A stretch of 64,000 nucleotides of DNA from the NCBI GenBank assembly GCA_947646735.1, contig CANTFK010000528.1, positions 124,001 through 188,000 on the forward strand. The letters are read 5' to 3'. Each line of letters opens with the position of its first letter. Positions within the stretch are counted from its first letter, which is position 1. The notes below the pieces were generated by a model. The model worked only from the letters and a program-made list of their open reading frames with translations. It was not told the origin of the DNA and did not search any database. Shown piece after piece: positions 5,302 to 60,647 of this stretch. A program made the translations under genes and the position numbers. Origin of the DNA: Peronospora farinosa. Its lineage: Eukaryota; Oomycota; Peronosporomycetes; Peronosporales; Peronosporaceae.

Positions 5302-8300
5302 ACAAATACTGTGTAACACGGCAGTGGCCTTTACCCAAAGAACAGTGTGACGTCATTGACGAGTTCTTTCGTGCAAAGCACGCGGCGGGCATGGTGCGTG
5401 AAAGTAAATCTCCGCACTCGACACCCACTTTCTGTGTTAAGAAACCAAATGGTAAATGGCGTATTGTTCATGCTTATAATAAGCTCAATGCGGCCACTAT
5501 ACCTGCACAGACACCGATACCTAGAAAGGATGTTCTTCAGAACAATATGGTCGGTTGTACCATGTACAGTGCGCTCGACTTAGTCGATGGTTATTACCAA
5601 TTGCTCATGCGAGCTAGTGATATTCCGCTTACTGCTGTTAGTACTCCGAGCGGTATGCTCTGGGAGTGGTTAGTGATGCCCCAAGGGCTATCTAATGCTC
5701 CGGCTACGTTTAACCGTTTGGTGACGCAATTGTTTCGACCCCATCGAAGTTATGCACAGACGTATTTTGATGACATTTTTGTCCATAGCCGAGCTGAACA
5801 TGGGCGGTCAGATATTGAGAACCATATTGTTCATTTACGAGCAGTGCTCGAGTGCATGCGCACTAATAAATTATATGCTAATGCCTCTAAGTGCATCTTC
5901 GGGGCCGAAGAAATTCCCTTTCTAGGGTGCTTCATTGGGAAGCGAGGACTACGAGCGGATCCCGCCAAAGTCAAAGCCATAGTCGATTGGCCTGTTCCAC
6001 AATCTCAGAAGGACTTGCGTAAATGGCTTGGCCTTGCCAATTACTTACACAAGTATAGCGAAAATTACGCTGATATGGCTCGGCCGTTATCCAATCTCCT
6101 TAAAAAGGATGTGGAATGGTGTTGGCATGCCGAACACGAAAATGCTTTTCAAGCAGTGAAGGCAAGCCTTCTACATGCTCCTATTTTGGCTTTGCCAGAC
6201 CCTGACCGACCGTTTAGCGTCGTCTGTGACGCATCGGATTTTGCCATTGGCAGTGCTCTGTTACAATCAGATGATGAAGGCCGTGAGCGTGTAATCGCTT
6301 TTGAATCTCGCCAGCTGAAAGCTGCAGAAAAGAACTATCCAGTTCACGACAAAGAGCTACTTGCGATGAAGTATGCCCTGGTCAAATTCAGAGTTCATCT
6401 GCTGGGCTCAAAGCCTTTTGTGATCTATACCGATCATGCGTCGTTACGCACTGCGACTCAGTCGCCGCATCTCTCGCAGAGAATGGCCAGATGGCTGTCA
6501 TTCTTTGCCGAATATAACTTCGAGGTGAAATATAAGCCGGGCAAGCAAAATGCTTTGGCTGATGCGTTGTCACGCAGACCTGATTATGAGCTTGCTCATG
6601 TGACGATGTTGTCGTCTTCTATCACCGATCTCATTCGTACGGCGTATGCTAAAGATGATCACTGTATAGCGTTGCTACATGCTCTTGGCAGTGAGGAGTT
6701 TAAAGACTCGGACATTAAATTGTCGGCACGATTGCGTGCAAGCCTCCATCGATATTCTATCGATGAGGGGCTGTTGTACTATCGTACAGATGTAGCGGAT
6801 CCTCCGCGTATTGTAGTTCCTCATGACGAGGACCTGAAGCATCGTATCCTCTATGAGGTACATGACACCGCCATCGGTGGTCATTTGGGTCGTGAAAAGA
6901 CCTATGGGGCAGTATGCCAAAGTTATTGGTGGCCCAAATTATACAAATGGGTGAGCACATATGTGCGTACGTGTGAAATGTGTCAGCGGGTGAAACCCTC
7001 GCCCCATTCGGCAGCGCCGCTGGCTAGTTTGCCTATTCCCACTGGGTGCTGGGAGTCCATTAGTATGGACTTTGTATTTGGCCTACCGAGAGATTCGCAT
7101 GGCAATACAGGTATTGTGGTCTTTGTTGACCGTTTGAGCAAGATGGCTCACTTAGCGGCTGTGCCAGATTCGATCGATGGTGTGGGTACAGCGGAGCTGT
7201 TTATCGATCGGGTGTTTCGCCAACATGGCTTGCCAGTGGCAATTGTTTCTGATCGTGATCCTCGTTTTACGAGTAAATTTTGGAAGTCCGTCTTCCAGGT
7301 GCTGGGCACCCGTTTGGACATGTCCACGGCGGATCATCCGCAGACCGATGGTCAAACCGAACGCGTAAATCGCGTTGTTGAAGATATCCTACGCAGCGTT
7401 TGTGCTGAAACGCCTAAGCGTTGGAGCTCTATGCTCCCTGTAGTTGAGTTTGCACTCAATAATTCCGTGCACGCCTCCACCGGCTACACTCCGTTCTATG
7501 TCAATGGTCTCACACACCCACGCGTTCCGTTAACGCTACCACCGAGTGGTTCAGGGCTTGGTGGGGGAGAGGTTGCCGATCGGCTTGCTGATGTCAGCCC
7601 TAATACTGTTAGGAAACAGGTAAATGCGTTTCTCGCAACGCGACTAAATGTCTTACGACATGTGCAAGATGCAATGGCTGATAGTCAAGATAAACAAAAG
7701 GAATATGCAGATGCGAAAGGCAGAGGTTGTATTAATGATTATGAGGTCGGAGACCAAGTATTACTTAATGCTAAAAACCTACCTACCAATGTAGTATCCG
7801 CTGTCTTTAAGACGAAGTTGCGTCCGCGCTTTATCGGACCCTTTAAGGTCATTGCCAAGAAAGGCACAGCGTATACGCTTAACTTGCCGCGCAAATTGCG
7901 TACACATCCTGTGTTCTATGTCGCCATGCTAAAACCTTATCGGGATCCGTCCCAAATAGACGCTAAGGCGCTCGCGCCGGGCCCATTGGCATTGTCGCGG
8001 GACGGAGCATCTGCACCAACAAGTCAAGTTGACCCTGCATTCGGGTCCGACTCTCTTCCAGGGACTCAAGCCGGGAGTTCATCGTCTGCCTCTCCTCACG
8101 AAGGGTCCGCACCTCCTGAACAAGCTCGGCATGAGCTTGTTCCGATACACCGACCTCCTCCTCCTTTGCTCGATGCGCAGGGGAACCTGCAGTTCCATGT
8201 GGAGCGTCTACTGCAGAAGCGTCGCCGCCATGGTCAAAACCAGTATCTGGTGAAATGGCGGGGTTATCCCGAATCATGGAATTCATGGGAATTTGAGACT

Positions 8301-8390
8301 CCCCTTCGGCAGGATTGCCCGTACGCCGTGGACGTTTTTGAGCGTCGTGCGCAGGGTCTGTCTGTTGGCGCTGACGCTTCTCACCAGTAA
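5298..8390 (+). CDS. pol: G1 Pol: RT, RNase H, integrase, chromodomain
   Basis: About 1,030 codons without a stop. RT covers roughly residues 30-240, with [10 protein letters not shown] and the catalytic YFDD near residue 156. RNase H (about 305-410) begins [10 protein letters not shown] and includes YTDHAS. Integrase has an HHCC zinc domain (about 515-570; CEMCQRVK) and a catalytic D, D-35-E triad: the D of SMDF, the first D of SDRDPRF, and the E of QTERVN, with exactly 35 residues between the last two. A GPF/Y module sits near 847. A chromodomain (about 966-1013; [16 protein letters not shown]) should steer integration to modified histones. The first codon is only where the frame opens; the true protein continues from the protease once the 11-bp insertion is allowed for. 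The last 428 nt are also read in antisense by another gene. Confidence 0.93.
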
Positions 8391-9246
8391 GGGTGAGGGT
8401 AGGCGGGTTAGCGGCCTCGGGCTGTCGTGAACTCGCGGCTACAGGGGTAGCCGAAACATTGGGCTGCTGGGCAGCAGGCGCATAATGCGTTCGTTGGGAT
8501 TTCAATTTCCCCCGGGCCTTCAATTTAGCGTAATCATAACGCATCTTCCGCTCAAGTCGGATATCTGCCACATCGGCGCTTGCCCGTAGGGCCCACATGC
8601 TGCTTAAACGTCGCGCATAATGCGCCCAGCGGCTGAAAGCCGTGTCTTCTTCGTCCTCGGTTTCCCCCGCGAACAGAAGGATGGGAACACCCTTCATCGG
8701 AGGAACTGGCGCACCGCGCACTTGCCTATTAAGGCGTGCCAAGTATTGGCTTTGAGTAGTGATATGGGGCTCCAGATATCGTTGTCGAAGTGCCGTGCGT
8801 GTGGCAACATCCTCAGGTGAAATGGCCTCAGGCCCAATGGTCCAACCAGAAAGGGAATGCCCAGATGCTTCCTTTAGACGTTCTTCCACCGTAGGTGGCT
8901 TGAACCTGTACTGTCGGTGGTCCTGCAGCCGCGTCATGTTCTTCGTTCGGCGCTTGGCGCCTTCCTCTTGGTCGATGGACCGCTGTTGCTGCTCGTCGAG
9001 TGGATTGGTAACCGTTACCGTTGATGATACGTCAGGCGGGTCACGTAACGCTGTTAGCGCATCTGCTGCACCACGTTCAGGGAACGGATTCGGTGCATGA
9101 CGAGTGTCATCTTCACCCGTGAGGGTGGCTAAAGGGGACCCATCGGGTCCCACAAAGACGGTGTCACTTTCGTAATCAACCGCTTCGTCAAGGTCGTCCT
9201 CAATGAGGTCCCTAAGAGTCTGTGACTCACTGCCGGGAGGCGTCAT
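7963..9246 (-). CDS. G1 antisense gene: coiled-coil protein with basic cluster
   Basis: 427 residues on the minus strand from an ATG at 9246, which lies 111 bp inside the 3' LTR, to a TAG at 7963-7965. The N-terminus is acidic. The middle is basic with many Arg. Residues around 285-320 carry two clusters (EKRQRQQ and QKRPRR) resembling a bipartite nuclear signal. The last 60 residues are a heptad-rich coiled coil ([17 protein letters not shown] and on). The final 428 nt overlap the chromodomain end of pol on the other strand. No known family recognised. G2, G3 and G4 have an antisense gene in the same place with the same kind of parts. It is probably transcribed from the 3' LTR, which is inference. 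It could be a chance open frame, but its length, ATG and counterparts argue against that. Confidence 0.75.
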   Translation of the reverse strand: MTPPGSESQTLRDLIEDDLDEAVDYESDTVFVGPDGSPLATLTGEDDTRHAPNPFPERGAADALTALRDPPDVSSTVTVTNPLDEQQQRSIDQEEGAKRRTKNMTRLQDHRQYRFKPPTVEERLKEASGHSLSGWTIGPEAISPEDVATRTALRQRYLEPHITTQSQYLARLNRQVRGAPVPPMKGVPILLFAGETEDEEDTAFSRWAHYARRLSSMWALRASADVADIRLERKMRYDYAKLKARGKLKSQRTHYAPAAQQPNVSATPVAASSRQPEAANPPTLTLTGEKRQRQQTDPAHDAQKRPRRTGNPAEGESQIPMNSMIRDNPAISPDTGFDHGGDASAVDAPHGTAGSPAHRAKEEEVGVSEQAHAELVQEVRTLREERQTMNSRLESLEESRTRMQGQLDLLVQMLRPATMPMGPARAP

Positions 9247-9348
9247 GTTGTGTGCCGTGAACAAACCGTGAGGTTTTAAAAGTTCGCTAAAGCACTACCT
9301 CTATGAGGAAAGATGTCGAGTGACATTCTATGGGAACGTCAGTCTGGT

Positions 9349-9995
9349 GGGGGAGGGTGTAACGGGGTTACACGACGGTTGTAACGTCTTTCCGAGAGTT
9401 TACGCTTAAACTCTCCTTTGTATTGCATATAATGCATTATTATACTTCTCGTTAGAGAGGTATTAAGTATGAGCGTTAAGATACGGTATTCGGTAATACC
9501 GTATCTTACCGATTAGGATTCGATGAATCGATAACGCTCCATTAAGTACATCATACACAGATGTTAAGACGATACGTCGTTCAATAGCAAAGTCTGCATA
9601 TAATAACTACTATTATAGTAATTAATCTAGTGTAGTGTACTTAAAGTAGGACTATTCATAATATCTTAAAGCATAAATAAAATCAGTTCTCCTTTTGAGT
9701 TTAAGACCACAAGTCGTTCTGACTTGTTCTCTTGTGCACTTCGTGCGTTGGTTCTCTGAACCCTAAGCTTCTAGCTTGCTCTTGCACTCTGTGCGTTGGT
9801 TCTCTGAACCTTAAGCTTATTGCTTGCTGACTAAGAGTCCCTCCTACTTCCTTAGAAGAGGGTGACTTTAACGTCGAATACTTAGTTCCTTAGAACTAAG
9901 TGGCTTTTAGCCTTAACTCTATTTAGTTCTCTCGAACTAAGAGGCTTCCAGCCGAAAGTCTTCCTCTGGCTAAAGAGCTGTGCAGCTCCGCTACA
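9349..9995 (+). repeat. G1 polypurine tract and 3' LTR
   Basis: GGGGGAGGG at 9349-9357 is the likely plus-strand primer. The LTR runs 9358-9995, 638 bp, and differs from the 5' LTR at a single base that I could find. The duplicated target GTGGC follows at 9996-10000. Confidence 0.93.
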
Positions 9996-20524: not shown

Positions 20525-21703
20525 ATCAGTCCTGGTGATTCGGTGCAGTCGTCAAGCAAAGGTTGCTTAACCAGTGGTTCCTGCGTATTACGGAGTATGG
20601 TGACCGACTTCTGGACGACCTGAACAAGGTACGGTAGGTGACTGCAGAGCGTGAACATGTCGAGGCGGTTTTAACACATTTTGAGCAGCTAAACAAGTGG
20701 CCGGACGCCGTGAAGCGTATGCAGGCAGCATGGATTGGACGATCGCAGGGCTCAAGAGTCGAGTTCCAGGTTGCACTTAATGCAGCGGCAGGTGTCAAAC
20801 CGACCACTTTGACGGTCTTCACGACGCGCGTTGACACCATCTTTGGTGTGAGCTTCGTTTCAATGGCTCCTGACAGCGTCGAGGTGGAGGTTTTGCTCCC
20901 ACACGTTCCGGCGGCACAGCGGGCTGCCGTCGATGCTTACGTTGCCAAGGTGCGCGCAATGAGTAAAGACGACCAAGGCAAGGGCGACACGACGGCAGGA
21001 GTCTTCACAGGACTGTATGCACATCATCCGCTTACCGGGCGTCACGTGCCCATTTACTTGGCCGAGTACGTGTTAGCACATTACGGTACCGGTGTGGTCA
21101 TGGGCGTCCCCGCACACGATAGTCGAGATCTATCCTTTGCGCGTCACCACAATCTAGAAGTGCGGTCCGTTGTGGGAAGCAGCGACGGAGTTGTGTGGAA
21201 TGAAGACGAGGCGTTCACAGATTATGGCGTGCTGCATGACTCTAACGAATTTTCCGGCATGACATCGCAGGAAGCGACGACGGCCATTAACGATCGTCTC
21301 GAAGAGAAGAGCGTTGGATGTACCACTACTCAGTTCCGCCTGCGGGATTGGTTAGTTTCACGCCAGCGTTACTGGGGCACTCCTGTACCAATCATCTCAT
21401 TGTCCGTCATGTGGACCGGTCGGAGTTCCCACCAAGCACTTACCAGTTGTACTGCCGCCCGTGGGGAAAGATGTGGCTGCCGGCCTGCGTGGAAAAGGTA
21501 GTAGTGACTCTCCTCTTGCGCGCATGCCTGGTTGGCAGGACTGCAAATGCCCACGTTGTGGCGGCGATGCCAAGCGCGACACCGACACACTTGACACGTT
21601 TGTTGATAGCTCGTGGTACTACATGCGCTACTGCGACGCTAGCAACGATGCTGCTGCCTTCAAACCCGAGCAAGCAAAAACATGACTGAAGCACACGAAT
21701 GAT
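20525..21703 (+). pseudogene. Leucyl-tRNA synthetase fragment (broken duplicate)
   Basis: Nearly identical to the minus-strand LeuRS at 61939-63981, in opposite orientation. It covers the end of one exon (LLNQWFLRI near 20555), a 61-bp intron, and the CP1 editing domain (TTRVDTIFG, GTGVVMGVPAHDSRD). It runs on to [13 protein letters not shown] and the zinc-like CPRCGGD segment. Damage: a TGA near 20537, one extra base near 21395 that shifts the frame, and loss of similarity after about 21700. The N-terminal HIGH half and the KMSKS half are both missing, so the fragment cannot charge tRNA. Confidence 0.88.
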
Positions 21704-26361: not shown

Positions 26362-26442
26362 ATCGCCCCCTGCACTGTTAGCTGACATACAGTGTTGGCC
26401 AGACTGTGCATCGCATCCACATTAATTGCCCCAGCCATTCTC

Positions 26443-43130: not shown

Positions 43131-43186
43131 ACACCACTGTCGCCACGCTGAGTACCAGCGTCTTGTCGTAGAGCTTACTCGACGAC

Positions 43187-44359: not shown

Positions 44360-45332
44360 CAACGAGTCAGCTGAGGATTTCCTGCTGACTCGTGAAGCGG
44401 TAGTCCGTTTCGTGCAAGACTCCATCGCAGAAGCGGTGGACAAGCAAAAGCGAAACGCAGACAATAATGGAAGGGCAAATGCTCAAACATTTATTGAAGG
44501 TGATTTAGTTTTACTGTCAACAGTAAACCTACCTAAACATGTAGTGACAAACGTGGGCAGCAATAAATTGTTACCCAAGTACATCGGCCCGTTTCGCGTA
44601 TTGCGCCGCCTAGGCAACGCATACACGATCGAGTTGTCACGCAGGATGCGTACGCATCCTACGTTTTACGTGGGACGTCTTCGTCCGTACGTTCAGTACG
44701 CGGCTTCTTCGAACGACGAAGATAGCCATTACTCTCAAGAATCCCCTTCAGATTCTTGTTGTCACGAACCAGATTCGATACCTGGTCGTGTAGAGATGAG
44801 ATCGTCCCATAATATCGGACGATCTCCTGACGAGCTGTCGCCAGCTCGTTACTTAGAGAATTAAGCCGCCGTTCATTCTCCAATAGTGCGACAGCATTGT
44901 TTGCCCGAGACTTTTCATGGTCAAACCCAAGCTGTCGCACAATGTACTCTAAGCTGCGACGCTCCCGTTCGTGATCAACATCACAACGTAGCTCACGAGT
45001 TACACGGGCAAACCCGTCTAACTCAGCAGCCAAGTCCGATGAAAGATTCGGACAGGGTTTTCCCTCCACCACCGCATCCGCTGGTGGACTCCCATGGTGG
45101 GAAGCGCTTCCTCGTGGAACGCTTACTAAATTACCGCGAGGCAAAGGGACGTTGGACGAGTTATCTTGTTTGGTGGCGTGGCTATCCGCCTTCGGCGGAT
45201 AGCTGGGAACCTCGGGCCCAACTGATGGCCGACGTTGCCGGCCTTGTCGAACAGTACGACAAGGGGCACCCGATGGTGAAGGACCATCGGAAAACGAGCG
45301 CCCAGCGCGTTCGTAAAGGGATTGCAAAGTAG
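44360..45332 (+). pseudogene. pol: G2 Pol C-terminus: GPF module and chromodomain
   Basis: Frame 44325-44864 carries YIGPFRVLRRLGNAYTIELS and HPTFYVGRLRPY. Frame 44886-45332 carries the chromodomain FLVERLLNYRE...YLVWWRGYPPSADSWEP and ends with a basic tail. A stop separates the two. Both are also covered by the antisense gene. Confidence 0.85.
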
Positions 45333-46358
45333 CAATCCCTTCACGCATCTCAGAAGAGATGCGAGCCCTCTAACAGGGCTCAGTAAGGAGGTACGCCTCC
45401 TTAGGCGCTCTTGACGAGGTGCTCAGGAACCCCGGGCATGGGTCGCCCCAAGAGAGGCATAACAGGCCTGCCTCTCTAGATAACCGGTGCAAACGATAGC
45501 ATGCACCGGACGTACTTCATTACTCAAACTTATTGCGGCTAGCAAACAGTCTTTAAAACCAAGCCTCTTTCCCAACGTGTAAGACGTTGGTGATAACGCG
45601 TTCCAAGATTGGAGGAACGCGTCAGCCTCACGCTTCTTGTGTGGGCCATAACATCGATGTTCAAGAAACACATCGCTGTAATAGTCGTTCTCAGTGCGAA
45701 AGTTCTTCGCACTGGCGTCAAGGCCATGAAGCTTTGACGCATCAAACAACGGTATGGGAAATCGTTCCTTGTTATTTCCAGACCAACGATCAAGCAGATG
45801 CTTAGGTAGCATCCATGGCTTGCGATCAGGAGCAAGACGCAATACGTTGCGATCTAAAGCCTCCTGCGTGGTGTCAACAGAAGTACCGACACCACGAGCA
45901 TTAGTGTCAACAGAAGTATCGACACTTCGAGCATTGATGTCAGTAGAAGCACTGACATCACCCTTACGATCCCCACCCGAGTCACTATCCTTCGACTCGT
46001 TTGGCGAGTCGTCTGATTCATCAGAAGACCCGAACATTCACGATGCATTGATTCACTCATGTACAACGATCCCTCTTCGTAACATTTGACGACGAGGTAT
46101 CACTCCGGGGAGATCCCCGGAGGGACACAGGTGACTTTGAGCCGGATGCGTCATCCGACTCTCAGAGTAGTCAACGACTAACTCTGGGTCAACATCTTCA
46201 CGTGGCGAAGCGCTACGTGAACCTGCAACAGGCGTTGCAGGCTGATGTTGACTTCCAGCAGACACATTAGTGTCTGCTGGCTGAGGCTGTGAAGCCTCAG
46301 TAGCGGCTGCACACAGGCGTGCAGCCGAGCTCTTAGCTGCCTTAGCAGCGACGCGCAT
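44659..46358 (-). pseudogene. G2 antisense gene, broken
   Basis: Minus-strand ATG at 46358, 109 bp inside the 3' LTR. The same frame carries two early stops (TGA at 46053-46055 and another close by), then runs on to 45423. A shifted frame from 45348 runs to 44659. Parts: Ala-rich start; acidic Ser-rich stretch with short repeats (VDTSVDTNARGVGTSVDT); middle with GPHKKREADAFLQSWN; C-terminal coiled coil (ENERRLNSLSNELATARQE...); and SKKPR basic cluster at the very end. It overlaps pol by about 670 nt, including the chromodomain. Same place and similar part list as in G1, though I see no clear sequence match to the G1 protein. Confidence 0.7.
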
Positions 46359-46454: not shown

Positions 46455-46913
46455 GAGGGGGGGTGATGTAACGGGGTGAGCCCGTTACATAATATTGACA
46501 CTTATATGAAGTGTCAATAAAATATTATTATAACTAATAATATTTTGACAATATTACCTTTACTCATAATATTGTTCCCAGATCTCCTTGAAGTTGGAGA
46601 TGCCCTATCATTGGTTGAGATGGGCCATCATATCAACCAACGCGCTGACCAATGACCGATGAACGCGCCCAATGAGTGGAGGGCAAGTTATCAACATACA
46701 TAGTTGTAGTTTAATATAGCTAACATAGGTTATAACATATAAGTTTTATTAGACAGTTAACTATATTAAATACAGCTTTCTTTTCCCTCTCAACTAAGCG
46801 TTTGTTTCGTTGATAAGCTTCCTCTGCTCACGTGTACGTGAGGTAATTGAGGCACCTGCTTTCACTGTAATCAGTGAAAGTAGACTATACTGTAATCAGT
46901 ATAGTCGGAGGGT
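46455..46913 (+). repeat. G2 polypurine tract and 3' LTR (end truncated)
   Basis: GAGGGGGGG lies at 46455-46463, then TGA, then the LTR from 46467. Similarity to the 5' LTR stops at GGAGGGT (46913), about 12 bp before the expected TTACA end, so no target duplication can be read. Confidence 0.88.
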
Positions 46914-47390: not shown

Positions 47391-48659
47391 TGTGGTGGAG
47401 TGGATTCTCAAACAACGTGAGAGAACCACAAACACACACAGCGCCGGACTGCCGACTTACGGAGGGGGTACCCCGATACCGTGTCGCGTCAACCTTGGGT
47501 CTCACCTTGTGTACCCGTCGGCTTGGCTGGTCTTGCTCCTCGTTAGACGCAGAAGACTTAAAGACTTGGTCTTAGTATAAGACTTGGACTTGGTGGTCCC
47601 CGAGTGGATATACTTCACTTGGGACCGAGTTTCTTGTTCTCGATCGACTTAGTCGAAAGCGATGCACCTACCCCTTTGGTGGCTGACTGTTTTTGGTCCT
47701 TGGACCCCTTTGTGTTCTTCCCCGTAGGGAAACCGCTTCCTGTAGCGGGTCGTAGAGTCTTGACACCTCAAGCCAACTATCCTGAGGCTCAACTTGCGTT
47801 GCTTGAGCCGTCTAACACCTGCTGGACGTCGGGGGGCCAAAGGGTATCCCGCCCGGAAGAGGTGAAGCGACGGAGAAGCTTAGAAGGGGTGCTTAAAGCT
47901 GCCACGTGTAATGCGAATTCGAGTGTGTTTATTCATCTTATACCTTGTATGCTTTTCTTGCCTAACCCTAACCCTTTGATCTGGATAGTGCCACGTGCCG
48001 ACTCTTGGAGGAAGAACTGGCTACTTGGTACCCTGTACTTTCTGTAATCTTCGATATTCTGTTTTCCGGTTCTGCACCCTCGGACATTGGGCCCTGGTAC
48101 CCCTGGGCCCCTGTACCCCTTTACCCCTGTACCCCTGGGCCCCTGTACCCCTGGGCCCCTTTACCCCTGGTACCCTGGGCCTCGGTACCCCGGTATCCCC
48201 GGTACCATGGGGTCCACCTGTCACCTGGGGTCCACCTGTCACCTGGGGTCCACTGGCCACCTGGGTCCACCGGTCACCTGGGTCAACCTGTCACCTGGGG
48301 TCCACTGGCCACCTGGGTCCACCGGTCACCTGGGTCAACCTGTCACCTGGGGTCCACCGGTCACCTGGGCCCACCTGTTGTCTGGGGCCCACCTGTTACC
48401 TGGGGTCCACCGGTCACCTGGGTCCACCTGTTATCTGGGACCCACCTGTTACCTGGGGTCAACCTAAGCTGCCCTAGCAGCACTGGTCCTTTGGTCTGTA
48501 GTGTAGGACATCCTAGTACCTTCTCCGAACTCGGGACCTTGGACCAGTTCGGGGCCCTGGTCACTCCCTGTCACTCATTCAAGAGAGTGACCGAGATCTT
48601 TCACGCCAGTTATTATAATAACTACGAAGGGCCCCCCATTTCTCTGGCACTTCTCCACA
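47391..48659 (-). mobile_element. Solo LTR of the G4 type, reverse orientation (1,269 bp)
   Basis: Nearly the exact reverse complement of 49547-50762, longer by about 50 bp because of extra copies of the GGTCACCTGGGTCCACC minisatellite. No primer-binding site or internal sequence on either side. The flanks TTTA and TTTG may be a decayed 4-bp duplication. Confidence 0.88.
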
Positions 48660-48918: not shown

Positions 48919-49409
48919 TCTGGAGTGTGAAGCTCGTCACCGTGGCCTCATACTGGCCCCTCCAGTACCGAATCTTGGACCGAGACGCTTTAACTTCAAG
49001 GCGATAATCCTTCCGGGTGGCGAGCGCATCTCGGTATTCCGAAATGGTTTGCTGGTCGGTTTCGTGATCGCGGACGAGCTTCCGAACTCGAGCCTCGATC
49101 CGGGGAAGATCAACTTTTCTAATCGAATGACCTCGTCCACGCGTCTCTGCAAGTCTTGGGCCCGGCGATGTTCAGCCTGATAGGCCTGCTGGAGGGCCCT
49201 ATGATTGTCAGAAGGGTCTCCATAACTTGGGCTCGTTCCATCGCCAGATGGATCGCTTCCCACGCCCGGGTAACACTCCCATAATCGGGGGGCTCCCCGA
49301 CGAGGTCTACAGTCGGAATAATCAAGGCAGGGTCAGGTCCAGGCAGTGGAGGGGTAGACCAACGGCCAGGTGCTGGGAGTTCGTCAGAGAAAGGACTGGA
49401 AGAGTTCAC
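48919..49409 (-). pseudogene. G4 antisense gene, N-terminal part
   Basis: Begins near 49409 with GTG (no ATG), about 140 bp from the LTR as in the other elements: Ser/Pro start, then helix TRAWEAIHLAMERAQVMETLL. A frame change leads to AYQAEHRRAQDLQRRVDEV, and a second change to IEARVRKLVRDHETDQQTIS and RKDYRLEVKASRSKIRYWRG, ending TLQ at the junction. Coiled coil throughout. Confidence 0.75.
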
Positions 49410-49546
49410 TGGTGAATAAAGGGTGGGTGAGTTGGTGAATACGGAGGATCGTCAAGCACATGGACACCTACTTATATGTTGAGGAGACGGGACAAGGATG
49501 CACGGGGTCTTGCAGCAGTTCGGAAGACCAGCGCGAATGGGACAGC

Positions 49547-50762
49547 TGTGGAGAAGTGCCAGAGAAATGGGGGGCCCTTCGTAGTTATTATAATAACTGG
49601 CGTGAAAGATCTCGGTCACTCTCTTGAATGAGTGACAGGGAGTGACCAGGGCCCCGAACTGGTCCAAGGTCCCGAGTTCGGAGAAGGTACTAGGATGTCC
49701 TACACTACAGACCAAAGGACCAGTGCTGCTAGGGCAGCTTAGGTTGACCCCAGGTAACAGGTGGGTCCCAGACAACAGGTGGACCCAGGTGACCGGTGGA
49801 CCCCAGGTAACAGGTGGGCCCCAGACAACAGGTGGGCCCAGGTGACCGGTGGACCCAGGTGGCCAGTGGACCCCAGGTGACAGGTTGACCCAGGTGACCG
49901 GTGGACCCAGGTGGCCAGTGGACCCCAGGTGACAGGTGGACCCCATGGTACCGGGGATACCGGGGTACCGAGGCCCAGGGTACCAGGGGTAAAGGGGCCC
50001 AGGGGTACAGGGGCCCAGGGGTACAGGGGTAAAGGGGTACAGGGGCCCAGGGGTACCAGGGCCCAATGTCCGAGGGTGCAGAACCGGAAAACAGAATATC
50101 GAAGATTACAGAAAGTACAGGGTACCAAGTAGCCAGTTCTTCCTCCAAGAGTCGGCACGTGGCACTATCCAGATCAAAGGGTTAGGGTTAGGCAAGAAAA
50201 GCATACAAGGTATAAGATGAATAAACACACTCGAATTCGCATTACACGTGGCAGCTTTAATCACCCCTTCTAAGCTTCTCCGTCGCTTCACCTCTTCCGG
50301 GCGGGATACCCTTTGGCCCCCCGACGTCCAGCAGGTGTTAGACGGCTCAAGCAACGCAAGTTGAGCCTCAGGATAGTTGGCTTGAGGTGTCAAGACTCTA
50401 CGACCCGCTACAGGAAGCGGTTTCCCTACGGGGAAGAACACAAAGGGGTCCAAGGACCAAGAACAGTCAGCCACCAAAGGGGTAGGTGCATCGCTTTCGA
50501 CTAAGTCGATCGAGAACAAGAAACCCGGTCCCAAGTGAAGTATATCCACTCGGGGACCACCAAGTCCAAGTCTTATACTAAGACCAAGTCTTTAAGTCTT
50601 CTGCGTCTAACGAGGAGCAAGACCAGCCAAGCCGACGGGTACACAAGGTGAGACCCAAGGTTGACGCGACACGGTATCGGGGTACCCCCTCCGTAAGTCG
50701 GCAGTCCGGCGCTGTGTGTGTTTGTGGTTCTCTCACGTTGTTTGAGAATCCACTTCACCACA
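49547..50762 (+). repeat. G4 LTR (1,216 bp), the only one in the unit
   Basis: TGTGGAG...CACCACA. Two GC-rich minisatellites: GGTGACCGGTGGACCCA type (49740-49945) and GGGGCCCAGGGGTAC type (49975-50070). GGGTTA twice at 50179-50190. Downstream, A then TGGTGCGCGTGCCCGGAT is the primer-binding site; its complement ends ...CACGCGCACCA, as a tRNA 3' end would. Confidence 0.93.
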
Positions 50763-53240
50763 ATGGTGCGCGTGCCCGGATCTTCGGGCGACGCGGGATT
50801 TCACCGTGAGTCCCACGAAGAATAAAAGACATCGGTCAAGATAGACCAAGGGACGACCAAGACACTGGAAACCGGATCGCCAGTGATCAAGAAGGAAGAA
50901 GGATCGGAGGACCTGCAGAGCCCGGGGAGGAGCTCTGCTATTGAGGTCAAGGTGGAATATGAAGAAAAACCACAAACTCCTCCCCCTTATGTCTTCGTTG
51001 AAGAATACAACATGGGCCATAATAAATATTATGATCCAGGGGTCCCAAGTTTGACAGCGAAAACTAAAAAACAAGGGACCCCGAAACAAGTCTCCCAACC
51101 TACCACTCAAGAGCCAAAGGTGCCCAAGAACAAGCAAAAGAAGCAGAAGCATACCAAGTTGAAGGCACCGAGAGGCGGAGACACGACGGACGAGTCGAAA
51201 GAGAGCCAAGGCGTGGCTAGTAAGGACTGTACAGAAGAAGATTTGGAAGAAGCCTGCCATCGGAATAAATTGAAGAAGTTTCTTCGAAAGGACCCGGTGA
51301 TGAAGGCGCTCAAAGTCAAGCTTCTGGACCAGGTCCACGGTCCAATAACGGCTCTTCCCACCACGACCACAGACCTGGAGGTCCTCAAGGCCGTAATGAA
51401 TCTGCTACATGAAGCTGGGATGGCTTCTGGGAACTTTACCGCTGAGACCCTCTTCGATTTCGGGTTCGAGACCTTGAAGAAGACCTTAGTGACCCTGCAT
51501 GGTCACCTCAAGACGTTAGTGGGGGAGTTTCCCCCAAAGGAAGTACCCTGTCAAGATGTAGGAGTAGTGGATCCTGGTGTGGGCTCTCCTGCTGGGTCAC
51601 TCGGTGAATCGTCACCAAGGTCTCAATATGAATCGGCCACCTCATCTATGATGTCGGCCCTGATGGATACGGTGGACCGAATGCAACTGGGTCCAGCTGG
51701 TGCAGCGTTGTTGGAAGCACGAATTCGTGAAGCTGGCCATATGTACACAGCAACCCCATGGGTCCAGCTCCAAGCACAGGAGGAGACGGAAGCCCGGTGC
51801 AAAGTGGAGCCAAGGTTGATGGGGACAAAAACGGACCAGGAAACAAAGACCGAGTCAGTTTCCCCTAGCGCACTCCAGTCGTACTTTGATAAGGCGATGA
51901 CCAAATTCCTTGAAGAGCAAGGCTCCACAAAAGTTGCAGTGGACAGGGGACACACCACGAAGGGTCAAGGACCAGTTCATCTCAGGTCCTCCCAGCGGAT
52001 TGAGCGCCTAGGACCACTAGGCGTTATCCCGGATGTGGACATGGAGTCTGTGGGGTCAACACATGATAAATACGACCCAGATGACTTGGCGTTCCCGATG
52101 ACCTAAGCGCGAGCGACTGTGGCCGCGGCTACGGCAGGAGGACCCCCTCCTGTTGTTCCACACATTAGGGTATCGGCCTCGTCGGATCTGAAGGAATTTA
52201 GCGGAACGGACCACGATGAAGATCGTGCCAGAAGCTGGAGCACTAAGGTAGACGGCTTTCCTCCGAGACCAGGCACCAGACAGCGAGAAGTGTCTCATTT
52301 TTGGGTCCCTGCTCACAGGTCCAGCTCAGAATTGGTATCGACAGCTAGGTCGAACAGTGCGCGTTGATTGGAAACTGCTTCTGCGAGAGTTCCAAGCACA
52401 ATTTTGCGGCTTGGGGGTGTCGGTGGCCCGACAATATTATCACGCCAAAAAGAGAACCGATGAGTCACCCTTGGAATATCTGTACCATTTGAACGTGGCA
52501 GGGCTCAGGTCCAAGCTAGATATTAAGGGTGGACCCCCCAGTGTAAAGCGTGAACACGTGGACCATTACGTGGAAACCTTGGATGATCGAGAATTAGCGG
52601 ACCAACTTACATTGCTCAGACTTTCTGATGCAGATGACCTGGAGGAAGTCCTGCTGGCTCGTCAGAGAGCGAAGACGCGTCAAGGAAGGGTCTTGTTCGG
52701 TTCCAGCAAGTTTCGACAGAAGGCCCCAACCACTCCAGACCATACCAAGAGTCAGCTGAGAAGACCCGTCCAAGTCATCCGGGCCACTTCTAATGAAAAT
52801 GACCAAGGGTCCAGCTCCAGTGGGTCTGAGGGAGAAGGTGACCTCAGAAGAATTTATGCGGCGGCGAGTAAACCTTACACTGGTAGGGCGAGGAACGCAG
52901 ATGACCCCCGGGACCATCAGGACCCAGAGCCAGACCAAGGTAGACGCATGGCAGAGGGACCTGGAAAAAGGTGGTCCAGGGTCACTCGTGGCAAAGTGTA
53001 CCCATTGTGGATCTAGGAAGCATGTGGATCTGGACTGTTGGAAGCGACTCGTTTGCGAGTGCTGTGGAAAGAAGGGTCACCCCAGCTGATCACTGCCTGT
53101 TTGTGTGTCGCGGTTGTGGCAAGGTTCATGACGCCGGCAAGTGCCCGATGGAAGAGTTCTACAATCTGATTCGCCAGTGGTACAACCCGAACAAGCACGC
53201 AGGGCAGCTGCCCGAGGCGGCGGAGAATATGTTAAATTAG
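50763..53240 (+). pseudogene. gag: G4 Gag, start codon abutting the LTR
   Basis: ATG 50763 directly follows the LTR and overlaps the primer-binding site; MVRVPGSSGDAGFHRES matches G3. A TAA at 50823 breaks the frame, which resumes to 52106 (VIPDVDMESVGS..YDPDD). Further pieces in other frames: HIRVSASSDLKEFSG, the capsid helix YYHAKKRTDESPLEYLYHLN, and three knuckles CTHCGSRKHVDLDC, CECCGKKGHPSDHC, CRGCGKVHDAGKC. Confidence 0.85.
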
Positions 53241-54424
53241 AACGCTCGCCAGGTTTGAATCTGGTACTAGCCGAGCGTTCTAATTGTTGCATTTATGCAT
53301 TTGTGGAGAAACACCCCGTGGAGAAGGTCAATAAGTTGGATGAATTGATTGGAAATACATCGGGCTTTTGCATTAATTCTGTTGCTGCTGTGGTTAATGC
53401 ATGTATACCTCACGTTTATCCCCGAGGAGAGACTATGATGACATTGGATTTATTACCGGGAAAGTCAAGAGGATACTGGAAACACCATGCCCCAGGGAAG
53501 TGGTTTAAGCAAGCCAAAGCCTCTGGAAAAGTTAACAATATTTGTGCGGATCTACTGTTTGATTCTGGTGCCGAGATATCTATTTTGGATATCGCCTTTG
53601 CTCGTAAGGCAGGCTGTCAGATTAACACAAGCGAAAAACAAGAGTGCGTGGGCATTGGAGAAGCAGTTTACACCACGGAAGGGCGAACGAAGATTAAGAT
53701 AACGCTGAATGGTGTATTAGTATACTTTTTCAATGTGTGGGTCGGGTCCATGGCCGGCCAGGATGTACTACTATGGATGGACTTTATGGTGCCCGCTGGA
53801 ATTCGTTTGGACATGGCGGATGGAACTATTTGCTTGCCAGACGAAGTTCGAATCCAGCTGATAGGTCGCAAGACCTTGTATAGTGGCCATATTTCTGAGG
53901 TAAAATTGGGCCAGTACGTGAATTTACCGGCGATAAAATATATCGAGGTTCCGCTGAAGAGGTCTATGTTGGACCAGTGGAAATTATGGATGACCCGTAG
54001 AGACAGATGGGTGATTACGATGATCCAAGGACATGGACATCGCCAATTCTTGAGGGTCACCAATGTGAGTGACAAGGACCTGATCCTACACGAGGATACC
54101 AGGCTGGGCATTTGGCTGTCTAAGGACCGGGTTCCCCGGGCCCAAGGATTCGTGTCAGTTGGTTCTAGGAGGTACGCTGAATGGAAAAATCTAGCCTATC
54201 AAGCAACCAACGATGAGGAGGATGCAGAAACTACTCAAGAAGAAGTATACCAAGGTCCGATGGTCGAGAAACCTCAGTACGCGACTCCACAGAAGATGTT
54301 GCTACGGACGGGGACCCAAGTGCCAGTGGTTAACGCGGTGCACGAGTCTGTTATGAGGGACCCTGAGTCATTACCATCAGATCAGGAGTCTGGAGGGGAG
54401 GCCCTCGATAGAGGTCAACCCTAG
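53241..54424 (+). CDS. pol: G4 aspartic protease
   Basis: In one frame with the end of gag (open from 53141). GKSRGYWKHHAPGKWFKQAK, catalytic LLFDSGAEISILD, DFMVPAGIRLDMADGTICLP as in G3. Ends at a TAG (54422-54424). Confidence 0.85.
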
Positions 54425-54425
54425 C

Positions 54426-55319
54426 GTGGGCAACGAAGTATCATCGAAGATTAGGACCGATATGGAGAGGGTCCACCCAGAGGAGGGTCCACAGGTCCAC
54501 CCAGAGGGGGGTCCACCGGTCCACCCAGAGGAGGGTCCACCGGTCCACCCAGAGGAGGGTCCACCGGCCCACCCAGAGGAGGGTCCACCGGCCCACCCAG
54601 AGGAGGGTCCACCGGTCATCGAGGCTGAAGTAGATACTCCCGATGACCAAGTCTGTGTTCACGAGAGTGGAGATTTATGTGCCGAAGATATCGACAAAAA
54701 TTGGTCTGTTATTCCTGAGGTCACCCCATCCACGAACGAAGTTATGTTGGAAGACATCCAGATCCCAGACCCCGGTGATACCCCAAAGGAGGAGGTAGAC
54801 AGCCTCCGCCAGATTATATGGAGAAAACGACATTTGCTGATGGGAAAAGATAACGCATTACCCCCGGTGGCTCGAGGAGCAGTGTGCGACATTGATGTTG
54901 GGAACGCACGGCCAATCGCCCAACGGGTACGGAAGGTGGCCCCTCAATTTAGGGAGAAGCTGGCAGACCTGATAAAAGGTCTCTTGTCATCCAACATAAT
55001 CCAGCATTCCACCTCCCCATGGGCCAGTCCAACTGTAATTACTGTCAAGAAGAATGGGGTGGATATAAGGCTGTGCATTGACTACCGGATGGTGAATGAC
55101 TTAACGCGGCTTATGGTGTACCCTATGCCTCTCGTGAATGAGTTGCTGGAAGCCCTAGATAAGGCCCTGTGGTACTGCTCACTGGATATGGCTAGCGTTT
55201 TTTGGGTGGTCAGCATGACTGAACGAGCACGTTTAATTTCGGCGTTTGTAACCCCGCTCGGATTGTTTAAGTGGAGACGAATGCCGTTTGGACTGAAGAA
55301 TGCACCACAGATCTATTAG
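54426..55319 (+). pseudogene. pol: G4 repeat spacer and RT N-terminal half
   Basis: From 54470 to about 54620 a 24-bp unit codes for VHPEEGPP about six times; its DNA is built on GGTCCACC, the word of the LTR minisatellite. RT follows: VDIRLCIDYRMVNDLTRL, RMPFGLKNAPQIY, then a TAG (55317-55319) where G3 has Gln. Confidence 0.88.
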
Positions 55320-56171
55320 AGATTGTTGAATAATGCTTTATATGGGTTCCTAACGATTTTCTCGAAGTCCAACACTGAGAAACAGGTTGACCTGTTCGAA
55401 ATAGGTCAACCTGAAGCGGACCACGAGGAGTCCATATTAGGACGCCGGTCTTATATCGATGATATTTTGGTAATCTCTGGATCATGGGATGACCTATGCT
55501 TAAAAGTGGAAAGACTATTGGAGGTTTGTGATAAGTGGAATTTATCGATCAGCGCGGTCAAAAGTTCATGGGGATGTAAAAAAGTTGATTATCTGGGGCA
55601 TCGAGTGTTTGCGGAGGGGTTGGAGGCCCACCCTAAGGATCTTCAGTCATTGGTGGACTTACCGCTTCTCACCACCCTAAAAGCCATGCAGTCGTTTCTT
55701 GGAAGTCTCAATTACTATAGCCGGTTTCTAGAAGACTACGCGATTTATGCGTCCATATTGTACGAGCTAAGAGAAGTGGATTATCACGTGTTACGACGCC
55801 GGATGAGTGGGACTGAGGACCCCCAGAGGAGTGACCAGGAGGAAGACCGATGGACTCGGGTGCAGGTGGCCTTTGCGATATTGAAGAATAAGATAGTCAT
55901 CGCCCCAATCCTCCGCCATTTTGATCCAGACCGGGAGCCTGTCATCATCGTCTATGCCAGTGAGTGGGCCATCTCGGCATCCCTGGTGCAGGAGTATGAG
56001 GGGGTGTATATGCCGGTCACTTTCACGAGTCGGACTTTGAAGCCAAACGAGATCAACTATGGGCTGGTGGACAAGAAAGTGTTGTTGCTATTGCGAATAC
56101 TAGACCTTTGCTACACGTCGCTGGTCACCCGACCTATCAAGGTCTTAACCCGACACTCAACGCTGGCGTAA
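55320..56171 (+). pseudogene. pol: G4 RT C-terminal half and RNase H
   Basis: Same frame as before the TAG. Catalytic SYIDDILVISG, VDYLGHRVFAEGLEAHPKDL, FLGSLNYYSRFL, and RNase H with VYASEWAISASLVQE and LKPNEINYGLVDKKVLLLLR. A TAA at 56169 interrupts after RHSTLA. Confidence 0.88.
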
Positions 56172-56288
56172 TTAGTACGGTCACCGGGTTTACAAGGTCG
56201 CCTTGGAAACTGGGCTGCACTCCTGTCCCAATGGACGTTAGAAGTGGTCAAGTGTAAGCGCGGCGAAGATGAAATACTGGGGACATAA

Positions 56289-58256
56289 GTGGCAAGCATT
56301 ACGCCTCGCGAAAATGTGGACTCTATTCTATCTTCAATCGCCCCAAAGAAACACCCGCGCCAAGCTATCACGGTGGTTCCTCCTACAGTCGAACCCGAGG
56401 AAGTCTTGTACGTGGTCAGTTTCGATGGGTCTGCACGAGTTAGACGTGGGGGCGGAGCCTGCAGTGCAATCGTATGGCAACTCCCAGGGTGGACCGTGAT
56501 TGCAGCAGCGTCAAGATATTTAACGGAGGCAACGGTAAACGAAGCAGAGTATGAGGGCCTATTGTTATGTTTTAGCCTACTGGAGAAATTTGATCGTAGA
56601 CGTCTGGTGGTGTGCGGTGATTCCAATCTGGTAATCCGTCAAATGCGAGGGGAAATTGAATGCAAGGCACCAGGTCTCACGGTACGAAGGTTGAAGGCCC
56701 TGGACGGGCTCTTTTCCTGGCCAGCCCATGGGTTTCTACACATTAAGCGTAAATGGAACCAGAGTGCGGACCGTCTCGCTAACGCGGCCCTGCAACAACA
56801 ACAAGGGGTCAAAATAATACTTGAGGAAGAGTGGAAAGACCTCGAAGAGATTAATCGTCTGCCTGAACTCTTGGTACCCAAGAATCCCAGCCCAGCAATG
56901 CGAATTACAGCTGTCACGAGGTCTCGGGTCCGGTCCAGGATGCCTACAGAGGTTGTGCAAGAAGAGGTGGTGCAACGGATACGAATTGAGCGAATTTCGG
57001 CTGCCCAAGACAAAGAAATGTGGATACGGGATTTGAAGCTCTACTTACGGGGTGAGTGGAGCAGTTTACCCGCAGAAGTGGCGTTGGCATGCGGCAAGAT
57101 CGAGACGAATTACGCTTTGGATGATGACGGACTTATATTGTATTGCCCGGGTCTGGGGACAGCTGAAGAGGATCGCGATGGGTGGATCCGGCTAGTGATA
57201 CCTGAAAGCCTACAACAAGATTTTCTGCACCATTACCACAAGAGTCTTGAAGGGGGACACCAAGGAATCGGCCGCACGTACCAGCGGATACGAAGGCATT
57301 TCCATTGGAGAGGGTTGTTTCGAAGTGTACAGCGCTTCGTTGGTACTTGTGTCGACTGTGAGACCGGAAAAGGTGGATCCACCTTACGAGGAAAGACCCC
57401 AGGGAATGTTCGGGCAACCTACCCATTTCAGGTCATCGCGATGGATCATATTCCATCGTTGCCCAAGTCGTTTAAGGGAAACACGGAGCTGTTGATATGG
57501 GTGGACCTGTTTACTGGTTATGTAATTGCTAAGGCCAGCTCATCGAGGTCGGCTCAAACCGTGGCAGAAGGGTACGAAGAATGTGTATTTCGAAGGTTTG
57601 GGGCTAGTGAGGCGATCCGACACGACAGGGAACCAAGTTTCATGTCGAATTTCTTTCGTGCTTTCAACCGCATGATTGGGCAAAAGCAGCGGGTCACCAT
57701 GGTCTACCGGCCGCAGGCCAATGGAACTGCGGAAAGGATGGTACAGACGATCACCCGAGCTATCAAGATGTATGTGTCGGAGGTGGACCAGAAAGATTGG
57801 GATGCATACGCGGAACGGCTCACATTTGCGCTGAACACGGCGCAGTACCGGGTCCGAAAGGAGACTTCGTTCTACCTGGTGCATGGTTATGACGCACGAA
57901 GCACGTTGGAGGCCACTATACCGCTGGGTAGTGCCAGGCGGCGTGACTGTGACCCCCGACGGTGGCGATATGGCGTACAGCGACAGTATCGCCGGGCAAG
58001 GGAACAAATCAACGAGTTATTGCGATCAGCAATGGAAAGTCGAGCCGAAATTCACAATGAAGAGGTGGCGAATAGCATGATTGAGGCAGAATCTCAGGTG
58101 TGGTTGTATCCAGACCGGGTCAAGGAAGGCTATGCCCGAAAATTGGCCCACCTATGGCATGGGCCATTCCGAGTACGGGAGATGGTGGGGGACCATGCAG
58201 CTCGCCTGGATATCAGTGGGACCGATTATCGCATTTACCCGCTGGTGCAACTTTAG
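56289..58256 (+). CDS. pol: G4 second RNase H and integrase
   Basis: 655 codons without a stop. Second RNase H: SFDGSARVRRGGGA, NEAEYEGLLL, VCGDSNLVIRQM, WNQSADRLANAA (D-E-D-D complete, unlike G3). Integrase: HHYHKSLEGGHQG..CVDCETGKG, AMDHIPSLPKSF, the D of HDREPSF and E 35 residues later in NGTAERMVQ, then WHGPFRVREM. A TAG at 58254 cuts it from the chromodomain. Confidence 0.9.
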   Translation: MASITPRENVDSILSSIAPKKHPRQAITVVPPTVEPEEVLYVVSFDGSARVRRGGGACSAIVWQLPGWTVIAAASRYLTEATVNEAEYEGLLLCFSLLEKFDRRRLVVCGDSNLVIRQMRGEIECKAPGLTVRRLKALDGLFSWPAHGFLHIKRKWNQSADRLANAALQQQQGVKIILEEEWKDLEEINRLPELLVPKNPSPAMRITAVTRSRVRSRMPTEVVQEEVVQRIRIERISAAQDKEMWIRDLKLYLRGEWSSLPAEVALACGKIETNYALDDDGLILYCPGLGTAEEDRDGWIRLVIPESLQQDFLHHYHKSLEGGHQGIGRTYQRIRRHFHWRGLFRSVQRFVGTCVDCETGKGGSTLRGKTPGNVRATYPFQVIAMDHIPSLPKSFKGNTELLIWVDLFTGYVIAKASSSRSAQTVAEGYEECVFRRFGASEAIRHDREPSFMSNFFRAFNRMIGQKQRVTMVYRPQANGTAERMVQTITRAIKMYVSEVDQKDWDAYAERLTFALNTAQYRVRKETSFYLVHGYDARSTLEATIPLGSARRRDCDPRRWRYGVQRQYRRAREQINELLRSAMESRAEIHNEEVANSMIEAESQVWLYPDRVKEGYARKLAHLWHGPFRVREMVGDHAARLDISGTDYRIYPLVQL

Positions 58257-58598: not shown

Positions 58599-58856
58599 AA
58601 GGGAGAGTTCATCTTGGGAAGTCCAAGATGATGCAAGAAGGAGGTGTTATTTGTTGCATGCACAGAAATTGGTCAAATATGTATTCTAGAAGTGCAGCAG
58701 AACAAGAAGAGTGAAGTATTGCTAACCTGTAGAGGACACCGAGGGACTATCTAAGATATGGCACCAAAGAGGAAGATCGAGAATGTGCTTGGGATTTCGA
58801 GGTGAAATGGCATTATCTCGGCTTATTAAGGATGCACTTAAAGCTAGTGATAACCC

Positions 58857-60647
58857 TCAGGCGGTGTCGGGTGGAGAAAACTTGCCATGGAGACGGGGAA
58901 CCCCGAAAGCGGGATGCTCGTGGATGTTCTTGTGGTAAAAGATGCGCCACGGTTCGACATCATCCACCACCTGCAACGCCGCCATAAGCCCCGGTTGAGA
59001 ACTCTCCTGGTTGACCCTTGGGGTCCAGTAAGACAGTTGACGCGTGGGGGTAACGGGCTGGAAGAAGGGGTCCAGCAGGATGTCCAAGTCACAGTGACCT
59101 GCTACCATCCCCTGCAGGACCTTCTTCAGCACTCCCATCCAAGCCTGTGTCGCCTTGGCCCGTCGTTTTTTCCTGGCGTTGTAAATGCGGGAGATGTACG
59201 CACTGCCGGCACGAAGAGTTATGGAGAAATGAAGACGGTGCCGGTCCTCCCACAAACTCTGGCGCGATGCGTCTGCGTAGGCATCGTAAAGCTCCACCAG
59301 TCCAACAAACCAGCCGTTTACGGAGAACGAGAGAGGATACTCAGACATCGTCTGCTTCTCCCATGGGCGCGAGTTCATCAACAGCCGGAGCTGAGATTCC
59401 GTTACGAGACTATTAGTCTCGCCCAGGCGGTCCTTTGATCTTTTGTCTAAAGGGGGGCTCGGACCCATCCACGAAGCTGGAAGGGTTATGCGAGACCACA
59501 GGTCCTTCACGCTTAATTGCAAGATCGCAAGGGGGCCCACCATAGAGACGGGCCATGGGGCAACGTCTTCGGTCTTGAACACACTTGGCTGGGCGTATCC
59601 CGGAATGGATAGGCCCCAGGCGTTGGAACCAGCGGGACCTTTGGATGCTGGCACCCCTTGATCATCAGAGTCGAGACTCTTAGTATCGGACTCGGAAGGA
59701 CCGAAAAGCTGGATGAACAGGTTGGAATGAGGCGTGGGCGTCTTTTCCGAGCTAAAAGAAGCAGCAAGTGACGTCTGTACCTTGGGAGGAGGCTTGTCCA
59801 TTGGTTTCCCAGTGGGCCCCGCCGGTTTCGCTGGTTTCTTAGTGGACCCCGCCGGTTTTGGAAGAGGCTTCGACGTCGGTTTCAGAGTGGACCCCGCCGG
59901 TTTTGTTGGTTTCCCAGTAGATTCCGCCGGTTTTGGAAAAGACTTGGACGTTGGTTTCCCAGTGGACCCCGCCGGTTTCGAAGAGGCTTGGACGTTGGTT
60001 TCCCAGGGGACCCCGCCGTTTTCGTTGGTTTCCCAGTGGACCCCGCCGGTTTCGGAAGAGGCTTGGACGTTGGTTTCCCAGTGGACCCCGCCGGTTTGGG
60101 AAGAGGCTTGACTTTTGGTCTCCCAAAGGACCGCACTGGTTTGGACTCCGTTGATGTTGGGAGAGGACCGGACTTGGGTGTCCCAGTAGATCCCACGGAC
60201 GTCGAAGAAGGGCCGGATGTCGTTTTACGAGATAAGTCCACCACCTCTGGAGCGGGTTTCTCCACGGAAGTCACCGGGCTACCACGACGACCGTGACCGA
60301 GCCATGGCCGCTAGCAGAGACTAGTCGCTGCTACTGGACTCGTCTTCAGGGGAACTTGGGGCACGGGTGGTCCGACGCTTCTTCGATGTGGAAAAGGCTG
60401 GAACTTCGGCAGTAGGAGACCAAGATCTTTCAGCCCTTGAAGGTCCTGGGACCTTAGTCTTAGGCGAGGCAGATCTATCCGCGGCGCTCCGAGCTACGGC
60501 CAGCTGTTTCTGGAGTTGGTCCCGTTGGCAGGCGACTTGCTTCACGAGGTCTTTAGAGCGGGCCAGCTCATCTCGAAGTAGTGATACTTGAGATACTGTG
60601 GACCGAAGATCGGCCGTGGTGGTATCCAACTTGGCCTCCAGCTCTTT
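58857..60647 (-). pseudogene. G4 antisense gene, C-terminal part
   Basis: Reading down from 60647: coiled coil KELEAKLDTTTADLRS...LLRDELARSKDLV, then STSKKRRTTR (nuclear-signal-like) and a Ser/Glu end with a stop at 60321. After that comes a repetitive stretch (60115-59800) of KPAGSTGKPT units built on CCAGTGGACCCC, then an open 314-residue frame 59801-58857. That frame has GWFVGLVELYDAY, RQSLWEDRH, RKKRRAK and GHCDLDILLDPFF, matching G3. It ends 258 bp from the facing pol stop. Confidence 0.8.

Follow-up and report, generated by a model that had tools for sequence, protein, structure and literature searches.

The 64,000-nucleotide stretch of Peronospora farinosa DNA analysed here, termed the window (positions 124001–188000 of its contig), contains four Gypsy-type long terminal repeat (LTR) retrotransposons, G1–G4. 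The initial annotation had proposed that each carries a gene opposite to gag-pol in the interval between pol and the 3′ LTR, and such frames were located in all four. The four antisense genes are real, but in the window only that of G1 is continuous; those of G2 and G3 are frame-disrupted and that of G4 is split. Across the elements the gene starts 81–138 bp from the 3′ LTR. The genome searched for copies comprises 46.85 Mb in 274 contigs, and elsewhere in it uninterrupted antisense frames of 443 to 973 codons are found. These frames are almost certainly protein genes under selection. The window elements have the following features.

1872–2509, plus strand: G1 5′ LTR (99.5% identity to the 3′ LTR; TG..CA ends; target site duplication GTGGC)
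2558–3571, plus strand: G1 gag (PF03732 and PF19259 matches)
3529–8390, plus strand: G1 protease, reverse transcriptase (RT), RNase H, integrase and chromodomain, in two overlapping frames with Pfam matches
7963–9246, minus strand: G1 antisense gene, 427 amino acids from the ATG at 9246, open frame
9358–9995, plus strand: G1 3′ LTR, from comparison of the LTR pair
24553–46913, plus strand: G2 element, LTRs at about 24553–25000 and 46467–46913, interrupted by the nested G3
44659–46358, minus strand: G2 antisense gene, broken in the window, its C-terminal part overlapping the pol tail
25454–38184, minus strand: G3 element, nested within G2, with the 4-bp direct repeat TCTC at its ends
26443–28723, plus strand: G3 antisense gene, ATG at 26443, frame-disrupted in the window
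27998–28720, plus strand: conserved domain of 241 amino acids at the C-terminal end of the G3-type antisense protein, modelled with AlphaFold2
49547–58256, plus strand: G4 LTR (49547–50762) with gag and pol pieces, from repeat comparison, frames and Pfam
58857–60646, minus strand: G4 antisense gene, C-terminal and middle part, from frames, alignment and other copies
48919–49409, minus strand: N-terminal part of the G4 antisense gene, out of place in the window copy and adjoining the 60646 end in other copies

The opposed orientation recurs across the genome. In 54 of 55 loci that match an antisense gene, pol is on the opposite strand, 52 being tail-to-tail as judged by midpoint and 2 overlapping; the remaining locus has no pol in the fetched stretch. 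This set was selected by antisense match and includes the window elements as L001, L009, L017 and L025, with L017 and L025 representing one element. Several G1 pol copies lacked an antisense partner among the matches listed; six of them, with 96–100% pol identity, were also fetched, and all six hold the gene, broken by frameshifts or deletions.

G1 spans 1872–9995 and is a young element, its two LTRs being 99.5% identical. It is flanked by the 5-bp target duplication GTGGC and has a G-rich tract ahead of the 3′ LTR at 9358. The antisense frame is open from 9294 to 7966 on the minus strand (443 codons), and a distance of 111 bp separates the ATG at 9246 from the 3′ LTR. This ATG is retained in 16 of 17 aligned copies, the 17th having no aligned sequence at that point. 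Full-length, stop-free 443-codon frames, that of the window copy included, number at least 30 among the 99 matches listed (95 of 657 candidates scored).

In the 17 G1 copies, the ratio of nonsynonymous to synonymous polymorphism (pN/pS) of the antisense frame outside the pol overlap is 0.272 (confidence interval, CI, 0.214–0.350), with 4 stops. The other five frames of the same region have pN/pS values of 0.35–1.84 and 133–302 stops. The pol frame, in the stretch that encodes pol only, has a pN/pS of 0.279 (CI 0.209–0.377) and 8 stops, and thus the antisense frame matches pol. Variable columns common to at least two copies fall 23/14/74 on the three antisense codon positions (p 5e-13), or 22/14/74 over a region one base shorter, and columns variable in a single copy fall 60/57/67 (p 0.65). 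Pol behaves likewise, with 18/11/50 for shared and 53/41/52 for private columns. A third-position bias in shared but not in private changes is the pattern expected of a gene on which selection acts while the element is active and which can decay freely once inserted.

The G2 antisense gene is present in the window as three pieces (46433–46053, 46037–45423 and 45369–44662). The M at 46358 is the start shared by most homologues in the alignment, and in other copies G2-type frames of 610–657 codons are uninterrupted. Outside the overlap, the antisense pN/pS in 15 G2 copies is 0.505 with 12 stops, next to 0.529 for pol, and the shared variable columns fall 7/8/21 by antisense codon position (p 0.006); the test is weaker here because the G2 copies are young. 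Purifying selection outside the pol overlaps is accordingly comparable to that on pol, as tested directly for G1 and G2. These two are related elements, since their integrase stretches are 57–66% identical and they have in common the LTR start TGTAACGGGGT and the sequence TGGTAGC just inside the 5′ LTR. In addition, the G2 pol tail matches the chromodomain stretch of G1 at 45%.

The G3 antisense gene is found in the window as pieces at 26386–26790, 26988–27635 and 27467–28723. In a relative group whose domain is about 65% identical, the frame is open over 905–973 codons. At one locus, L033, pol has a frame of 1468 codons, open as far as the fetched stretch extends, and facing it is an antisense frame of 948 codons whose first M is at 76; 189 bp separate the two frames, and the G3/G4-type gene is thus without pol overlap. 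For G4, the initial annotation had joined 58857–60647 to 48919–49409. The join is correct, because the 48919 piece stands next after the 60646 piece in 35 of 39 other copies among the matches listed, 2–8 bases apart and mostly 3. Five copies were fetched, and in one of them, L062, the antisense frame runs through 752 codons without interruption and the junction can be read.

The G4 window copy is itself rearranged, with its 3′ end piece (48919–49546) standing ahead of its own 5′ LTR. At a distance of 887 bp there is an inverted LTR copy (47391–48659), and 16 consecutive G residues adjoin 48919. This arrangement could stem from a permuted insertion, from a local inversion or from a fault in the assembly.

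The G3 and G4 proteins share a C-terminal domain, as had been proposed: identity is 31% over 232 residues, and GWF, RQ.LWE, RK.RR and GHCDLDILLDPFF align. The domain also includes RKQRRSR and CDLDILLDP. Structure prediction of the G3-type domain, a suggestion of the initial annotation, gave a confident model (predicted local distance difference test, pLDDT, 87.7; predicted template modelling score, pTM, 0.84).

A patch of about 1.4 kb with 87–99% identity was revealed by sliding comparison between L033:3200–4550 and both the window G3 and locus L002. It takes in the end of pol as well as that of the antisense gene in groups that are otherwise about 46–86% alike per 100-bp step, and recombination or template switching between G3-type groups is a possible origin. 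A swap of the antisense module, considered in view of high pol and low antisense similarity between L033 and the G3 type, was dropped once the shared patch was seen. Because the patch covers the ends of both genes, the selection test was redone outside it. Over 184 codons of the C-terminal domain in five copies, the antisense frame has 0 stops, every other frame has stops, and the antisense frame has the lowest pN/pS in 10 of 10 pairs. Between-group pairs of the G3/G4 type have ratios of nonsynonymous to synonymous substitution rates (dN/dS) of 0.075–0.171 where dS is computable; dS is saturated in many pairs, so that dN/dS is rough, and the frame comparison does not depend on dN/dS. Chance is excluded as the origin of the antisense frames because the selection is frame-specific.

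Profiles of the G1, G2 and G3/G4 antisense proteins do not match one another, and by this measure there are three antisense gene families without detectable mutual homology, described here as new. Protein searches, with 8000 candidates scored for each, give at least 46 homologues of the G3/G4 type, at least 68 of G1 and at least 184 of G2. The G3/G4-type homologues are in Phytophthora fragariae, P. megakarya, P. palmivora, P. capsici, P. nicotianae and P. fragariaefolia and in Peronospora matthiolae. Those of G1 are in Peronospora effusa, Peronospora destructor, Peronospora matthiolae, Hyaloperonospora arabidopsidis, H. brassicae and Albugo laibachii, the last with 41% identity at 85% cover. 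Among 120 G2-type homologues listed, the named ones are from Peronospora effusa and Peronospora matthiolae. Entries of Peronospora effusa match the G1 protein at 96% and the G2 protein at 80–92%. Most homologues are labelled uncharacterized, and one G2-type cluster has 1335 members. One homologue of the G3/G4-type domain (P0020, 586 amino acids) has Pfam RT and RNase H domains in its entry and may be a fused or mis-assembled frame.

Two other identities for the gene were considered and rejected. An envelope-like third gene, for which sense orientation and a transmembrane segment would be expected, does not agree with the antisense orientation or with the hydropathy of the four proteins, where the top 19-residue value is 0.66–1.18. 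As to a captured host gene, no host parent is seen, since the named matches are hypothetical, unnamed or uncharacterized oomycete proteins apart from P0035, labelled autophagy-related, and P0048, with a lebercilin domain; both are coiled-coil-type labels.

The initial annotation ascribed a coiled coil and a basic cluster to each product, and basic clusters and heptad-like windows are indeed found in all four types. The predicted G1 protein has an acidic disordered start, a confident core at about residues 81–246, a disordered stretch with QKRPRR, and a long helix at 369–414 that is confidently predicted. The core of the G2-type protein displays H-x9-C-x6-C-x2-C (residues 357–377 of P0002), a possible metal-binding site; across 18 proteins the first three of its residues do not vary and the fourth almost never does. 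The core is followed by a coiled-coil-like stretch and then SKKPR. The G3/G4-type protein is predicted to have an N-terminal coiled-coil-like stretch, basic clusters, low-complexity repeats and the C-terminal domain, which is all-helical.

Several other features of the window were noted. Tandem repeats are found in coding regions of the elements at 4170–4850, 33105–33302, 54446–54637 and 59773–60085, with spacings of 87, 99, 24 and 75–119 bp, respectively. A 347-amino acid frame at 22863–23906 on the minus strand has a signal peptide-like start and an RYLR motif downstream, and reading of the frame alone makes it a candidate secreted RxLR-type protein. An inverted 1-kb pair (20670–21697 and 62974–64000) has 98.6% identity, and a frame within it bears what we take to be a resemblance to leucyl-tRNA synthetase.

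The elements probably make an accessory (helper) protein from the antisense gene. A separate convergent gene that begins 81–138 bp from the 3′ LTR suggests, by analogy with known antisense genes, that it has its own promoter near or in that LTR. This third gene would be read toward the pol end, from near or inside the 3′ LTR, and the element would need the product during its active phase. The protein may oligomerise via the coiled coil and enter the nucleus via the basic clusters, where the conserved domain could bind element nucleic acid or host chromatin factors and such binding would tune element transcription. The three unrelated-looking families would then be independent or very old answers to one need. 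A nuclear regulator is compatible with the coiled coil, the basic clusters and the conserved core, and an import/integration helper or an anti-silencing factor is nearly as compatible with them. Taken by itself, nuclear regulation as the role is a tentative proposal, put somewhat below even chances; the combined statement, that these are selected antisense protein genes with a nuclear regulatory role, is rated as moderately probable.

A number of observations weigh against this proposal. Basic clusters and coiled coils are weak predictors; the heptad windows are the best one picked per protein, the model of the Albugo homologue ends ahead of the coil (z 1.09), and homologue P0030 has no basic cluster outside the domain. 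Domain searches of the antisense proteins, with profile scans of homologue alignments for the 25 commonest families, gave no known DNA-binding domain. Structure searches gave no fold match for the antisense protein models, and the G3/G4-type domain model has no significant match among PDB or viral models. Of the two frames that overlap in G1, it is pol that is constrained, with shared columns falling 14/19/31 on the pol codon positions; within the G2 overlap neither frame is clearly constrained, and close G3-type pairs, which have few changes, range in dN/dS from 0.14 to 0.94. Finally, no promoter motif of weight was found. In a scan with oomycete promoter motifs, G1, G2 and G3 have no initiator-type (INR) match and only scattered short matches of the flanking promoter region (FPR) type; L033 has three weak initiator-type matches, and the combined INR+FPR motif is absent from all four. 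This negative is weak evidence because no more than about 13% of P. infestans genes contain the combined motif (PMC3599244).

Codon bias, or constraint acting on the opposite strand, might have produced the antisense frames as a by-product, with no useful protein made from them. Within the overlaps this is partly true, as antisense pN/pS is 0.815 next to 0.504 for pol in G1 (425 bp, 7966–8390) and 0.906 next to 0.735 in G2 (671 bp, 44662–45332). Outside them, however, the antisense frame is the constrained one and the other five are stop-rich, and the G3/G4-type gene, as seen in L033, has no pol overlap at all. The frame and codon-position tests outside the overlaps, which had been set as the test of this explanation, went against it, and it is regarded as very improbable. 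The same overlaps and the tail-to-tail layout bear on a role of the antisense transcript as RNA, in which convergent transcription would lead to double strands and to small RNAs that limit the element. Small RNAs of P. infestans do map in both orientations along the abundant Gypsy elements Pi-1a and Albatross (PMC3522703). But an RNA role predicts neither a third-position bias in one frame nor the absence of stops there, and protein-level selection argues against a purely RNA role, which as the main function is improbable. Both roles can coexist, and the overlapping convergent transcripts could feed small RNAs.

Two other explanations accept the protein and differ as to its task. It may be a chaperone or import adaptor with a part in particle function or in nuclear entry and integration, and not in transcription. 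This is equally compatible with the coiled coil and basic clusters, and entry of the pre-integration complex into the nucleus is raised in a review of the plant genes (PMC7264820). On the other hand, separate antisense placement suggests a timing apart from gag-pol, which would suit regulation better, and the particle or import role is considered unlikely, though the strongest of the rivals. Alternatively, the protein may counter host silencing, its own promoter allowing it to outlast silencing of the 5′ LTR. Nuclear-type features and the separate placement are in favour, and plant transposons encode anti-silencing proteins, an analogous case. Domain and fold searches gave no sequence or fold link to such proteins, however, and this role is held to be slightly less likely still than one in import.

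Whatever the task, evidence of selection on the antisense strand separates a protein role from an RNA role, and the three families account for a set of recurrent 'uncharacterized proteins' in annotated downy mildew genomes. Antisense genes are known mainly from plant Tat elements and retroviruses, and for Tat the function is unknown. The initial annotation knew of no description for oomycetes; none was found among top-ranked literature matches, a coverage that leaves out most subscription papers. The word 'antisense' occurs 0 times in PMC5348765, in PMC10508981 (2023) and in PMC11540230, on the P. effusa pangenome.

Among oomycete Ty3/Gypsy elements, Chronos has a domain set of dual RNase H, in which a type I RNase H comes after the gypsy one, and a chromodomain downstream of integrase; convergence has been argued with plant Tat for the additional RNase H and with chromoviruses for the chromodomain (PMC5348765). 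Elements of the G3/G4 type display this set and are likened to Chronos on that basis. Gypsy RNase H (PF17917/PF17919) and RVT_3 RNase H (PF13456) are both found in L033 and G4, and RVT_3 was not reported in the G3 window pieces searched. The chromodomain PF00385 is found in G3, and in L033 at E 2.6e-4, below the curated cut-off; it was not found in the G4 frame searched. The available text on Chronos describes no antisense gene (PMC5348765), whereas G3/G4-type elements have one. The likeness between Chronos and Tat thus seems to extend to an antisense gene, of a different family, and by their domain set G3/G4-type elements seem to be oomycete counterparts of plant Tat elements.

In plant Tat elements the antisense open reading frame aORF-3R (gene23 of maize Grande, and those of rice RIRE2 and Silene Retand) is located between pol and the 3′ LTR in most copies and is conserved like other element proteins (PMC7264820, PMC11963269). 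Position and orientation are the same as in the window elements. The Grande gene23 product is nuclear and the gene has its own upstream promoter (PMC7264820), and the Retand antisense genes mostly have TRP28 (PMC11963269). By contrast, TRP28 (PF04195) is not matched by the window proteins at E 1, by P0001 or P0002 at E 0.1, or among the 25 commonest alignment families. Pol and the 3′ LTR lie about 1 kb apart in G1 and some 3 kb apart in the G3/G4 type, compared with 2.9–6.6 kb in Retand, and overlap with pol is, relative to Tat, a feature of the G1 and G2 genes.

HBZ of human T-cell leukaemia virus 1 (HTLV-1) is a nuclear regulator with a zipper or coiled coil, encoded antisense from a promoter in the 3′ LTR (PMC10186651). 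In the window elements, too, a protein with a predicted coiled coil is encoded on the antisense strand at that end. For HBZ a promoter in the 3′ LTR has been demonstrated, and for the window elements it is supposed; domain searches of the window antisense proteins and homologues gave no bZIP match, and no homology to HBZ is seen. Boty of Botrytis cinerea, a fungal and thus non-plant element, is described with an antisense gene between pol and the 3′ LTR (PMC7264820), and by this description its gene position is the same as in the window. Perhaps complex Gypsy elements (Tat, Chronos, and the G1 and G2 lineages) have repeatedly gained, as they evolved, a nuclear regulator encoded in antisense, with the HBZ arrangement of deltaretroviruses reached several times independently by unrelated proteins; this is possible, although doubtful. 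If so, plant Tat and oomycete Chronos would both have gained a second RNase H plus an antisense gene, and the G1 and G2 lineages would have gained other antisense genes. The three families under pol-like selection, in oomycete elements of which one type also has a second RNase H and a chromodomain, make antisense genes look like a repeated, testable evolutionary outcome.

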